Assembly (NCBI RefSeq): GCF_001614315.2
Contig: NZ_LVEG02000011.1
Coordinates: 124,001 to 188,000, forward strand
From: Halofilum ochraceum
Lineage (GTDB): Bacteria > Pseudomonadota > Gammaproteobacteria > XJ16 > Halofilaceae
Direction: 5' to 3'
Length of the DNA: 64,000 nucleotides
How positions within the stretch are numbered: position 1 is the first letter of the stretch; each line of letters opens with the position of its first letter. This document shows positions 20,091-62,020 of this stretch, one piece after another. A model generated the notes under the pieces. It searched no databases. It was not told where the DNA came from and saw only the letters and a list, made by a program, of their open reading frames with translations. Position numbers and translations under genes: made by a program.

Positions 20091-20160
20091 AGTGCGTGCG
20101 GCGCACTTGTGAAACTTTGCCCTTGCATGGAGGCGTGTGGGAGGGCCGCGGCGTACAGGC

Positions 20161-20335
20161 GATCTCTCGCCAAGACGCCAAGCACGCCAAGCAAAGACAA
20201 AAACTGGGAACCCGCCTCGTTACGCTGGCCGAGCGCGAATGAGCGTGATGGTCGAATCCGGTCTGGACCTCAGAAAAGCCACTTTCCGATTTTGATTTTT
20301 CTTTCTTGGCGCGCTTGGCGTCTTGGCGAGAGATC
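20161..20335. repeat. Inverted-arm element A (CGCCAAG type) between glgB and glgC
   Basis: A 31-base left arm (20161-20191) and right arm (20305-20335) are inverted copies with one mismatch. Each arm contains three CGCCAAG 7-mers spaced 1 and 2 bases apart. The 113-base interior has no gene and no GTAG REP. The glgC promoter side lies just beyond the right arm. Confidence 0.85.
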
Positions 20336-20429
20336 GGTTTTTTGAGCCGAATACCCAGCCACGCATGGGCGCCACCTGCGCTGTCAGCTATGCTCGGAGC
20401 GGGAGCGTGACATCGCCCGGAGGGAGAGT

Positions 20430-28412: not shown

Positions 28413-28527
28413 CTCCTCGGAATGGACGCGAGCCCCGGAAATCCGGGGCCCGCGTGTGATTTATAGCGCCAGCGCTGTCAGATTGCCACAGGCCGGGCGG
28501 GGAATTCTGGTCGGCAGTGCATTCGGG

Positions 28528-28903
28528 TTCTCGCCAAGGCGCCAAGAGCGCAGAGGTCGCGAAGGAAAAACGAAGGTATGGCGGTCGCGTGGTCGGACGA
28601 AGCCCGTAGGCGCGTTTTCGCCGAAGGCGAACGCGCGCATCGCTTGCACCGCACGGGATTCATCGTACTGTCCCGTGGCGGCCAGCGGCGCACGCTCCCG
28701 CAAAGCGCCGGAGCGCGGGGCACTCGGTCTGATGCGCGCGGGTACGCGTGTTGATCTGATCTCCGCCGCGGATGTGCGAGTGCGAGGATACAATCTTCGG
28801 GGCGCGCCGCGCGCATTCGAACGGCGCTCGTCCGCGCCGCCCGAAGACGCGCCTACAATGGTTTCCTTTGCGACTCTTGGCGCCCTCCGCGCCTTGGCGA
28901 GAA
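28528..28903. repeat. Inverted-arm element E (mixed CGCCAAG/CGCAGAG arms) carrying a REP pair
   Basis: Left arm 28528-28569 contains CGCCAAG twice, then CGCAGAG and CGCGAAG; right arm 28874-28903 ends GCGCCTTGGCGAGAA. Inside, GTAGGCGCGTTTTCGCC starts at 28606 and an inverted GCGCCTAC ends at 28855, so a REPIN is nested in the arm element. The rest of this 582-base gap (28413-28994) holds the rpoD terminator and no gene. Confidence 0.75.
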
Positions 28904-28936
28904 CCCAAACCCACGTCTACGCCGATCTCTCAAATG

Positions 28937-33160: not shown

Positions 33161-33290
33161 TCTCTCGCCAAGACGCCAAGTGCGCCAAGGAATGCAAAGT
33201 ACATCGTAGGCCGGCCTTGGCCGAAGGCCAATGCCGGCAGTTCGCGCCCGGTTTTTCTGTTCCTTGGCGCACTTGGCGTCTTGGCGAGAA
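33161..33290. repeat. Inverted-arm element B (CGCCAAG type) carrying a REP unit, between tkt and gap
   Basis: The arms 33161-33192 and 33260-33290 match over 30 bases without mismatch; each has three CGCCAAG 7-mers spaced 1 and 2 bases apart. Inside, GTAGGCCGGCCTTGGCC starts at 33206, a unit of the GTAGGCCGGC REP family. The right arm is preceded by GGTTTTTCTG, as in other copies. Confidence 0.9.
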
Positions 33291-40394: not shown

Positions 40395-40488
40395 AAAATT
40401 TCGATTCACCGGAATCCGCGCATATCGTGGCCCGAGCCGGCCAGCATTCATGCGGCGGAGAGACTTTGGCCGACGCGTCAAAACCGGG

Positions 40489-40655
40489 ATCACGCAGAGC
40501 CGCGGAGAGCGCGGAGGACGGCGGAACGGTGGCCCTGACGGGCAACCGGAGCCTGTATGCCATTAATTGTATTCCGGATGCCGGCGCAGATCTCCGGAAT
40601 CATCTGCATCAACAGCCGGCCGTTTTTCTCCCCGGCCTCCGCGGCTCTGCGTGAA
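40489..40655. repeat. Inverted-arm element G (CGCGGAG type)
   Basis: The left arm (about 40489-40517) reads TCACGCAGAGCCGCGGAG, then AGCGCGGAGG, i.e. three related 7-mers (CGCAGAG, CGCGGAG, CGCGGAG) spaced 1 and 2 bases apart; the right arm (40637-40655) is its inverted copy, one unit shorter. CGTTTTTCTC precedes the right arm. The bfd-purE gap (468 bases) shows no gene. Confidence 0.75.
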
Positions 40656-40782
40656 TCCGGTCTTCCGGCTTCTGGCCCCTTATCGCAGTCCGGAGCCGGG
40701 TCCAGTCTGGAATGGCGGGTAGCACGGCGCTGCCGCGTTCGCCATAATGCCCGGTTTTCCGCGGCCCAAGGGAGGGCACGCC

Positions 40783-53356: not shown

Positions 53357-54856
53357 ATGACGCCAAAGCAGTTCCACGAATACGCCCGCGCGGGCTATAA
53401 CCGCATTCCGCTCTCCCGCGAGATCCTCGCGGATTTCGATACCCCGCTGTCCACCTGGTCGAAGCTCGTCGACGGCCCGTACTCGTATCTGTTCGAGTCC
53501 GTGCACGGCGGCGAGAAGTGGGGCCGTTACTCCGTCATCGGCCTGCCCTGTCGGACGGTCGTCCGGGTCGAGGAGCGGACCGTTACGGTGGCGACCGACG
53601 GCGAGGTGGTCGAGCAGGCGGAGGTGGCCGATCCACTGGCGTGGATCGAGGACTACCGCGCCCGTTTTCAGGTGCCGGATGTCGAGGGGCTGCCGCGCGT
53701 GCAGGGTGGTCTGGTCGGTTATTTCGGCTATGACACCATCCGTTACATCGAGCCACGTCTCGATGTGCCGCAGAACAAGCCGGATCCGCTCGGAACGCCC
53801 ACGATCCTGCTGATGCTGTCGGATGAAGTGGTCGTCTTCGACAACCTGCGCGGCACCGCCCGGTTCATCGTCTTCGTCGAGCCGACCGAGGAGGCTCGCG
53901 TCGCCGGCGAGACCCGGATCGACAACCTGATGAGCGATCTGCGCGGGCCGGGCACCGGTTATCCGACGCCGACACGCGCGTTCGACGTCTCGGAGAAGGA
54001 CTTCGTCTCCGGTTTCACCGAGGCGGGTTACAAGGATGCCGTCGAGCGCATCAAGCGCTACATCGTCGACGGCGACGTCATGCAGGTCGTGCCCTCCCAG
54101 CGCATGACGGTCCCGTTCGCGGCCCGCCCGATCGATCTGTACCGCGCCCTGCGCTGCCTCAATCCCTCGCCGTACATGTACCTGCTGGATTTCGACGATT
54201 TCCAGGTCGTCGGGGCATCGCCGGAGATCCTGACCCGGGTCGAGGACGGCGAGGTGACGGTCCGCCCGATCGCGGGTACCCGCCGGCGCGGCCGCGACGA
54301 CGCCGAGGACCGGGCGCTGGAGGCCGAGCTGCTCGCCGACCCGAAGGAACGGGCGGAGCACCTGATGCTGATCGACCTCGGCCGCAACGACGTCGGCCGG
54401 ATCGCGGAGATCGGCTCGGTTGAACTCACCGACAACATGACGGTGGAGCGCTATTCTCACGTAATGCACATCGTCTCCAACGTCGTCGGCCGGCTCCGGC
54501 CCGGACTGTCGGCGCTCGACGTGCTGCGGGCGACGTTCCCGGCGGGCACGCTGTCGGGTGCGCCGAAGATCCGCGCGCTCGAGATCATCGACGAACTCGA
54601 GCCGGTCCGGCGGGGTGTGTATTCCGGCGCGGTCGGCTATCTCGCGTGGTCCGGCGACATGGATACCGCCATCGCGATCCGCACCGCCGTGATCAAGGAC
54701 GGCGAACTCCACGTCCAGGCCGGCGGCGGCATCGTCCACGACTCCGAGCCGGACGCCGAATGGGAAGAGACCATGAACAAGGCCCGCGGCATGATCCGCG
54801 CGGTCGAACTCGCCGAGAAAGGACTCGATGCGGCGGATGGGGTTCCAGAGCGCTGA
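53357..54856 (+). CDS. trpE: Anthranilate synthase component I
   Basis: A 499-residue chorismate-using enzyme, first step of tryptophan synthesis, working with TrpG as amidotransferase. The N-terminal part has the feedback-binding region ([23 protein letters not shown]); the C-terminal catalytic part has [87 protein letters not shown] and [24 protein letters not shown]. All are intact, and the length is normal. Between it and trpG lies the arm-flanked element with the GxxExxY gene (54870-55328), which starts 14 bases after the trpE stop and lengthens the usual short trpE-trpG gap to about 500 bases. Confidence 0.97.
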
Positions 54857-54869
54857 CCTGAAAAATCGG

Positions 54870-55328
54870 TTTCTCGCCAAGACACCAAGCGCGCCAAGGA
54901 AGGCTGGTATGACGGACGATGAGATTGATCGTATCGTGGTCGATGCGGCGGTTGCCGTGCATCGCGAATTGGGACCGGGGCTATTGGAAACTGTCTATGA
55001 AGCGATTATGGCCCATGAGCTGCGTGAGCGTGGACTCGCCGTCGCGAGACAGGTCCCGGTGCCGTTGCGGTATCGTGGCGTCGATTTCGAAGAAGGCTTT
55101 CGAATGGACCTCTTGATCCAGTCCCGAGTGATCGTGGAAATGAAGTGCGTCGAGAGCCTGAATAATGCGCACAGAAAACAGTTGCTAACCTACCTCAGGC
55201 TAACGGGGCGGCGACTCGGATACCTTTTGAATTTTAACCGGGCGTTGATGAGAGAGGGCATCGTCCGCGTTGCAAATCGCGCGCAAGAAGCACCCTGAAT
55301 TCTTGGCGCGCTTGGCGTCTTGGCGAGA
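54870..55328 (+). mobile_element. Inverted-arm element C (CGCCAAG type) carrying a GxxExxY gene, inside the trp operon
   Basis: A 459-base element with arms at 54870-54901 and 55300-55328, inverted copies with two differences. The left arm has three 7-mers (CGCCAAG, CACCAAG, CGCCAAG), the right arm the same in reverse. The coding frame 54909-55298 fills the interior from arm to arm: it starts 7 bases after the left arm and its stop ends one base before the right arm. The same arms without a gene occur at 20161, 33161 and 57835. No target duplication is seen. Confidence 0.8.
54909..55298 (+). CDS. GxxExxY family protein, PD-(D/E)XK nuclease-like
   Basis: A 129-residue protein of the GxxExxY family (TIGR04256 type). 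The naming motif is Gly24-Leu-Leu-Glu27-Thr-Val-Tyr30 in HRELGPGLLETVYEAIM. The PD-(D/E)XK nuclease residues follow in order: Glu27, Asp67 (GFRMDLLI), Glu77-x-Lys79 (VIVEMKCVE), and Gln91 (HRKQLLTYL), so the active site looks complete. The role of the family is not known. The ribosome-binding site GGAAGG lies at the edge of the left repeat arm (54898-54903), and the stop ends one base before the right arm. It is read in the direction of the trp operon, so trp transcription should carry it. Codon use does not stand out from its surroundings by eye, apart from a lower GC content in parts of the frame. Confidence 0.85.
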   Translation: MTDDEIDRIVVDAAVAVHRELGPGLLETVYEAIMAHELRERGLAVARQVPVPLRYRGVDFEEGFRMDLLIQSRVIVEMKCVESLNNAHRKQLLTYLRLTGRRLGYLLNFNRALMREGIVRVANRAQEAP

Positions 55329-55358
55329 GATTGCCTTTTTAGGGCGAGGAAATCGACC

Positions 55359-55970
55359 ATGCTGGTAATGATCGACAACTACGACTCGTTCACCTGGAAC
55401 CTCGTCCAGTATCTGGGCGAGCTGGGTGCCGAGGTGGCGGTGTATCGTAACGACGAGCTGACCGTCGACGAACTCGACGCGCTGGAGCCGGAGCTGCTGA
55501 TGATCTCGCCCGGCCCGTGTACGCCCAATGAGGCGGGCATTTCGGTCGAATCGGTACTCCGCTTCGCCGGGCGCATCCCGATCCTGGGGGTCTGTCTCGG
55601 GCACCAGAGCATCGGCCAGGCGTTCGGCGGGCGGGTCGTGCACGCCCGCGAGATCATGCATGGCAAAACCTCGCTGATACACCACACGGGCGAGGGGGTG
55701 TTCACCGGTCTGCCCAACCCGTTCGAGGCGACGCGGTATCATTCGCTGGTGGTCGCGCGCGAGGGGCTGCCGGACTGCCTGGAGGTCACGGCGTGGACGG
55801 AACTGTCCGATGGCTCCATGGACGAGATCATGGGGCTGCGGCATCGTGAGCTGGCGATCGAGGGCGTGCAGTTCCACCCCGAGTCGATTCTCACCCGCAA
55901 CGGCCACGACCTGCTGCAGAACTTCCTCGGCCGCGCGGCCGAGCGGCAACCGGAGGAGGCGCCCGCATGA
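55359..55970 (+). CDS. trpG: Anthranilate synthase component II (glutamine amidotransferase)
   Basis: A 203-residue class I glutamine amidotransferase that supplies ammonia to TrpE. The start [23 protein letters not shown] is typical, the nucleophile Cys lies in [17 protein letters not shown] (about residue 80) and the catalytic His-x-Glu in [12 protein letters not shown]. The length is that of the stand-alone TrpG/PabA form. ATG 55359 follows GGCGAGGAAA; its ribosome-binding site lies about 20 bases beyond the end of the inserted element. It overlaps trpD by 4 bases (ATGA). Confidence 0.97.
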
Positions 55971-57803: not shown

Positions 57804-57834
57804 CCGCAGGGGTCTGCCAAGGCTCGTCAGAGGG

Positions 57835-58064
57835 TTCTCGCCAAGGCGCCAAGGTCGCCAAGGGACGCGAAGAAAGGGAAAAATCTGTAGGAGCGAGCTT
57901 GCTCGCGAATGTGCCCGCACTGCGCTAGGGGTTACAGAGAAGCCCCGCCGACACGGCGGTGGTCAGCGATGGCCATTGTTTCAGCCAACTGCCGTGCGAG
58001 CACTATCGCGAGCAAGCTCGCTCCTACAGGGCCTCGTTATTTCTTCCTTCGCGTCTTGGCGAGA
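57835..58064. repeat. Inverted-arm element D (CGCCAAG type) carrying a REP pair, after trpC
   Basis: The left arm from 57835 has CGCCAAG three times (spacers 1 and 2 bases) then CGCGAAG; the right arm (about 58041-58064) is a shorter inverted copy, CTTCGCGTCTTGGCGAGA. Inside, REP units GTAGGAGCGAGCTTGCTCGC at 57887 and its inverse ending CTCGCTCCTAC at 58027 form a REPIN. No gene lies in this 333-base gap. Confidence 0.85.
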
Positions 58065-58136
58065 CCCCCGAAGAAGGTGTGATGGAGCCCGTACGCAGGA
58101 TTGCGTGCAAAGACGGTACGGACCCGCAGCGCGCGT

Positions 58137-61716: not shown

Positions 61717-61743
61717 GTTCGGGGGCCGGTGAAGGGAAGGCGG

Positions 61744-61982
61744 AACCACGAATGGACACGAATAAACACGAATGGTGATTGTGGCAGCTTCGATCGGGAT
61801 GGAGCTTCGCTGAGCGGGTTTCGCTACCGATGTGGTGGCGGCTGGAACGCAGGCGCGTTTTCGCCGAAGGCGAACGCGCGCGTTTGCTGCGCAAAAACGC
61901 GCCTACCGGGTCCTGGCGAAGCCCCTCAGGCGTGTCCTCGGCCCCGATCGCCATTCGTGTCCATTCGTGTTCATTCGTGGTT
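61744..61982. repeat. Inverted-arm element H (CACGAAT type) carrying a REP pair
   Basis: Arms 61744-61775 and 61951-61982 are 32-base inverted copies with three differences. Each has CACGAAT three times with a 10-base period. Inside, GCAGGCGCGTTTTCGCCGAA at 61849 and an inverted GCGCCTAC ending at 61906 form the REPIN family also found in element E. It ends 38 bases before the rpiA stop. No gene lies in the 349-base gap. Confidence 0.85.
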
Positions 61983-62020
61983 CCCGGTTTTTCTTTCGAT
62001 CGACCCATCGCACAAAGCGG

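Follow-up and report, generated by a model that had tools for sequence, protein, structure and literature searches.

The window, a stretch of 64,000 nucleotides of the Halofilum ochraceum genome, contains a small gene of the GxxExxY (PDDEXK_3) family between trpE and trpG, enclosed by a pair of inverted-repeat arms. The features of this junction are the following.

53357 to 54856, forward strand: trpE, upstream neighbour of the GxxExxY gene
54857 to 54898, forward strand: left arm, with its core at 54872-54898 made of three units, TCTCGCCAAG-ACACCAAG-CGCGCCAAG
54909 to 55298, forward strand: GxxExxY / PDDEXK_3 gene found by profile matches, 129 aa, ATG at 54909 and TGA at 55298
55302 to 55343, forward strand: right arm, with its core at 55302-55328, reverse complement of the left arm
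55359 to 55970, forward strand: trpG, downstream neighbour of the GxxExxY gene

Profile searches matched the predicted protein to PF13366 (E=7.6e-41) and TIGR04256 (E=3.8e-40), and its bit scores lie far above the curated cut-offs (139.6 versus 22 and 136.9 versus 35, respectively), which places it in the family. The arm cores, 27 nt each, are complementary at 26 of 27 positions, and the extended arms (54857-54898 and 55302-55343) at 83% of 42. The arm score of this pair was 24.5, as compared with a maximum of 13 in 200 shuffles. The units of the left arm are CGCCAAG, CACCAAG, and CGCCAAG, and the right arm has CGCCAAG three times on the reverse strand. The PDDEXK_3 gene is the only gene between the arms, and no known transposase is found there. 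Thus, the element that the sequence-only reading had placed between trpE and trpG, with its gene inside, was borne out. The same reading had put the gene 7 nt after the left arm and 1 nt before the right arm; with the limits used here these distances are 10 and 3 nt, and the earlier values are correct only if the arms are lengthened by 2-3 nt.

The PD-(D/E)XK catalytic positions proposed for the protein (Glu27, Asp67, and Glu77-x-Lys79) are conserved, since 64 homologues show little or no variation at E27, D67, E77, and K79, and likewise at Q91 and Y95. The closest folds to the predicted structure (pLDDT 93.6, pTM 0.86) are Cas4 (4ic1, Z 9.3) and lambda-type exonucleases, with Hjc resolvases scoring lower. 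The family shares with these RecB-like PD-(D/E)XK enzymes both the fold and the motif order H..E..D..E-x-K..Q..Y, but differs in being a single domain of 120-130 aa encoded within repeat arms, for which no recombinase partner was seen. The Cas4 profile of PADLOC gave a weak match to the window protein (E=0.0064), and no convincing sequence relatives were found among solved structures. We regard the kinship to Cas4 and the exonucleases as a resemblance of predicted folds, of moderate strength. The gene is under purifying selection, with dN/dS of 0.085/0.77 = 0.11 in comparison with its ortholog in the congener G001.

A link to arms is not peculiar to this locus, and the alternative, that GxxExxY genes of other genomes lie apart from any such arms, does not hold. 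Among relatives found by profile search, arms lie no more than about 180 nt from each of the 13 full-length GxxExxY genes, and the left side nearly always reads CRC..A. toward the gene. When genome contigs were scanned, 80 GxxExxY loci were recovered from Chloroflexi, Cyanobacteria, Bacteroidota, Verrucomicrobia, Planctomycetes, Acidobacteria, Desulfobacterota, and other phyla. An arm score of at least 14 was obtained for 56 of these 80 loci, versus 0.5% of 2039 random segments. As a control set we used 905 other ORFs of 100-180 aa from the same loci. Comparable arms enclose the gene at 53 of 71 GxxExxY loci versus 9 of 905 control ORFs (odds ratio 293, p=3e-62), and at least three units per arm on both sides were present at 36 of the 71 loci versus a single control ORF in 905. 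About one quarter of the 71 loci have no clear arms. Most loci of another set, 30 in number and largely drawn from a single other family, have arms of like kind. The general arm design is three units of about 7 nt (CRCNNAR) spaced by 8-10 nt, and a nuclease gene between such three-unit inverted repeats is a general arrangement that spans many phyla.

Like arms without a gene had also been reported elsewhere in the window, and we confirmed six further elements there with the same or related arms (no strand is assigned to them).

20160 to 20336: gene-less CGCCAAG-type element; the same place in G001 has CGCGGAG-like arms
28522 to 28909: gene-less CGCCAAG-type element; the same place in G001 has different but matched arms
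33163 to 33289: gene-less CGCCAAG-type element with arms matching at 30/30
40480 to 40664: gene-less CGCGGAG-type element; the place in G001 is without such arms
57832 to 58067: gene-less arms of the CGCCAAG type around a REP-like pair (57885-58029)
61742 to 61984: gene-less CACGAAT-type element; the same place in G001 has CACAGAT arms and a partly conserved interior

The window genome as a whole (G000) has about 186 arms of the CRCNNAG x3 pattern, with a single match to the reversed control pattern. The CACRRAT x3 arms number 139 in this genome (control 0), 110 in G001, and none in G002. The same genome has just two genes of the family, and each main arm type encloses one of them. Gene-bearing and gene-less copies share their terminal inverted repeats, the interiors of CGCCAAG-type copies differ from one another, and the elements are mainly intergenic; a tblastn search of the gene-less elements of G000 found no GxxExxY gene remnants. 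Gene and copy types match within genomes: the second gene of G002 has CACGAAA arms, a type present only in G002 among 10 genomes, and arms of the CGCAGAT type, that of the G027 gene, number 10 in G027 and 2 in G040. In a hand tally of 299 genomes, at least ten arms were found in 29 of 58 genomes with the gene versus 10 of 241 without it. Arm-rich genomes lacking a GxxExxY match include G208 (141 arms) and G275 (38 arms, listed completeness 100%), and such exceptions show that arms can outlive the gene or be kept without it.

The CACGAAT-type elements show additional internal structure. Several of about 330 nt contain an inner arm pair (G000:C1:244850-245129 and 606061-606398; C3:6882-7201; C4:474771-475090; also in G001), whose CACAGAT or AAAAATG-like units stand at a constant distance of about 99 nt from each outer arm, and a conserved GGAGCTTCGCTG / CAGCGAAGCTCC pair lies between. 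Whole CACGAAT elements are duplicated in tandem at G000:C1:375853-376597 (L188) and 631531-632012 (L201), with offsets of about 396 and 251 nt; these duplicates are nearly identical and therefore probably recent. A Pseudomonas-like REP pair (TGTAGGAGCG..GCTTGC) is located within the arms of two separate elements, namely the one in the window at 57885-58029 and G001:C5 (reverse) 97672-97837. The nested arms and complementary outer flanks had suggested insertion into the loops of existing hairpins, an explanation that we rejected, as 27 CACGAAT elements lack complementarity of the outer flanks; it is seen in CGCCAAG elements only, because their arms simply extend further. No direct repeats were apparent in the listed flanks of these 27 elements, empty sites in relatives are too diverged for comparison, and we found neither an excision product nor a recent insertion with clean junctions.

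Comparison of orthologous places revealed occupied, empty, and decayed sites. Three congeners have an element at the trpE-trpG junction, one copy being split by a contig end, and the junction is without an element in G011, G003, and G014, so the gene is not kept in all relatives. In G016, the junction holds a distant GxxExxY gene (L014) that is not a sister in the tree. Since two non-sister elements thus occur here in different families, the junction may be an insertion hot spot. A locus in Nostocaceae is occupied in many genomes and has no arms in G376, G414, G435, and G387. Partial remains were identified in G398 (a short arm hairpin only) and G447 (arm remains), and in the cyanobacterium G389 the locus retains degraded arms together with the start of the coding sequence (MIENEITGLIT). 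Gene loss can therefore leave arms behind. Many GxxExxY loci are vertically inherited, and, unlike classic transposons, the family is nearly absent from mobile replicons (5 of 72,556 plasmids and 0 of 50,697 phages).

We analyzed co-variation of protein and arms in 104 proteins with readable arms. For unit base 2 (A or G), the best predictor is alignment column 154, corresponding to residue 125 of the window protein in its C-terminal tail; proteins with Leu at this position have CGC arms only (54 of 54). For unit base 5 (A or G), the best predictors are residues 7-8 in the N-terminal helix, and Lys or Arg at residue 8 pairs with A at base 5 in 38 of 40 cases. The window protein has R8 and A125. 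Pagel tests on a tree built from core columns only supported both associations (base 2 with residue 125, LR 49.2, p=5e-10; base 5 with residue 8, LR 33.5, p=9e-7), and the swapped base-residue pairs showed no co-variation (p 0.49 and 0.38). Residues 8 and 125 were chosen from about 112 columns and 4 bases, a correction that the p-value survives easily for residue 125 and moderately for residue 8. When 112 columns were compared, column 154 proved isolated for base 2 (next-best LR 16.9, median 5.5); for base 5, the highest-ranking columns cluster in the N-terminal helix. Parsimony requires 16 and 22 changes for unit bases 2 and 5, respectively, and the co-variation is thus not the effect of one clade. 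The last unit base (G or T) also tracks protein subfamily, but in a clade-bound manner.

The same correspondence is visible among close relatives. In Nostocaceae, AK or AR at residues 7-8 occurs with CGCAAAG units (12 cases) and SG or TG with CGCAGAG units (10 cases), without exception among the readable cases, and the switch takes place mostly at one syntenic orthologous locus. In the orthologous pair L015/L016, R8 goes with CACGAAT and Q8 with CACAGAT; the gene-less element at 61742, with its part-conserved interior, shows the same difference between the two species. Because protein and units change together in evolution, the GxxExxY protein very probably recognizes these repeats. Since orthologous loci switch arm sequence, an extra process such as conversion or replacement is needed.

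Several known systems share features with these elements. As in REPIN/BIME and RAYT (TnpA-REP), a genome has many short palindromic copies but only one or two genes for a cognate nuclease, and the system is mostly vertical, intergenic, and chromosomal. However, RAYT is an HUH/Y1 tyrosine transposase and GxxExxY a PD-(D/E)XK protein, whose arms consist of three tandem units, enclose the gene, and co-vary in type with the protein across phyla. The terminal repeats common to gene-less and gene-bearing copies recall MITEs and their autonomous IS elements; in contrast to these, the GxxExxY elements have no DDE, DEDD, serine, or tyrosine transposase, their arms are built of repeated units, CGCCAAG-type interiors vary between copies, and no target duplication was apparent in the listed flanks. 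Drosophila foldback (FB/NOF) elements have long inverted ends of short tandem repeats, a variable loop, and a gene in some copies only. The GxxExxY elements likewise have inverted ends of short tandem repeats and a variable middle, but they are bacterial and far smaller, and their protein is presumably unrelated. Among the known mobile-element families tested here, none matches this enzyme and arm design, though the pair works like REPIN/RAYT.

Heptamer repeats have been described in Xanthomonas and Nostoc (GGGAATC; PMC4692102) and in Beggiatoaceae (TAACTGA; PMC4679880) as short tandem 7-mers that are intergenic and sometimes form inverted pairs; their unit sequences differ from ours, and no protein was tied to them in these papers. 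They resemble the arms of another gene class in the same genomes, that of the four-helix-bundle genes (PF05635, 23S_rRNA_IVP; L149-L178), which lie between inverted arms of tandem units of about 7 nt, often G-rich and of other sequences, similar to the published GGGAATC and STRR heptamer repeats. An arm score of at least 14 was obtained for 26 of 30 such loci (for example, L167 at G000:C20:45712-46017), and these genes with their arms are a possible parallel system. In open-access full texts searched with the repeat sequences in both orientations, we found no description of the arms or of the association, and the repeat-and-nuclease element appears to be undescribed so far.

We propose that the element consists of two three-unit arms and one Cas4/RecB-like nuclease acting on its own arms and on gene-less copies, and assign this reading a probability of roughly 0.7. 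The nuclease would bind the units in cis and in trans, as a dimer or higher assembly on units of two arms, with base 5 read by the N-terminal helix (residue 8) and base 2 by the C-terminal tail (residue 125). It would then cut at or between the arms, and the excised or folded DNA would be repaired or copied, duplicating the element or its arms. As a result, elements would spread, be kept, and be homogenized, gene-less copies would be multiplied in trans, and a shift in nuclease specificity would lead to rewriting of the arms of the genome. Recognition is strongly supported, while direct binding, cleavage, and the movement and homogenization driven by it are steps that we infer. The minimal mobile unit of the sequence-only reading, arms plus nuclease with gene-less relatives, is supported by the arm link, the large excess of gene-less over gene-bearing copies, the remnant in G389, and the co-variation; for its movement part, neither target duplication nor excision was seen. 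Further points that count against our proposal are the arm-rich genomes in which no gene was detected, the loci lacking clear arms, the near absence from plasmids and phages together with vertical inheritance at many loci, and the change of arm sequence at orthologous loci.

Other explanations account for part of these observations. The system may have been domesticated, so that nuclease and arms serve the host, for example by processing cruciforms or by terminating replication or recombination where genes converge, and copies are kept by selection and not by selfish spread. Vertical inheritance at one locus across Nostocaceae, purifying selection on the gene, near absence from plasmids and phages, and the mostly intergenic location of the elements agree with this view; however, the sharply varying number of CACRRAT arms among congeners (139, 110, and 0), the empty sites in relatives, and the arms that outlast gene loss make it unlikely. 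That the arm elements owe their movement to another enzyme, with GxxExxY riding inside as a passenger, is very improbable. Many copies are indeed gene-less, a few genomes have arms but no gene, REPs are also found within arms, and four-helix-bundle genes lie inside unit arms of a different class, but a passenger would predict neither that two residues of the protein co-vary with two bases of the unit, as they do after correction for the tree, nor that gene and copy types match within genomes.

Two further explanations concern expression of the gene, and we consider both extremely unlikely. The arms are located where transcription occurs, as in the trp operon, and hairpins of this length around a gene would pair in RNA and might govern message decay, termination, or processing. 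Selection on RNA should favor G-U pairs, but on the gene strand of 84 gene-flanking arm pairs there are 78 G-U versus 88 A-C mismatches (p=0.48), indicating that the pairing is not kept for RNA, and the protein-arm code involves unit bases and not pairing. Alternatively, the protein might bind the arms solely as a regulator of the gene that encodes it, in the manner of toxin-antitoxin modules. Such operators would explain the co-variation and the position of the arms next to gene start and stop, but not the presence of arms at both ends and about 90 further pairs per genome.

Our proposal of a nuclease acting on its own repeats can be extended to an undescribed class of elements that spans many phyla: a small Cas4-like nuclease would read heptamers by a residue-to-base code, its cutting would move elements and rewrite arms, and the PF05635 genes would form a parallel second system; we put this wider view forward tentatively, at somewhat less than even odds. 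GxxExxY is a widespread family annotated as ‘function unknown’ and is now tied to a concrete target in DNA, of which a genome has dozens to hundreds of copies; the residue-to-base code is testable by binding assays and residue swaps. Such a system would account for a large group of inverted repeats found between genes, would add a mobile or maintenance system with an enzyme outside the known transposase families, and would offer a small, naturally varied sequence-reading nuclease.
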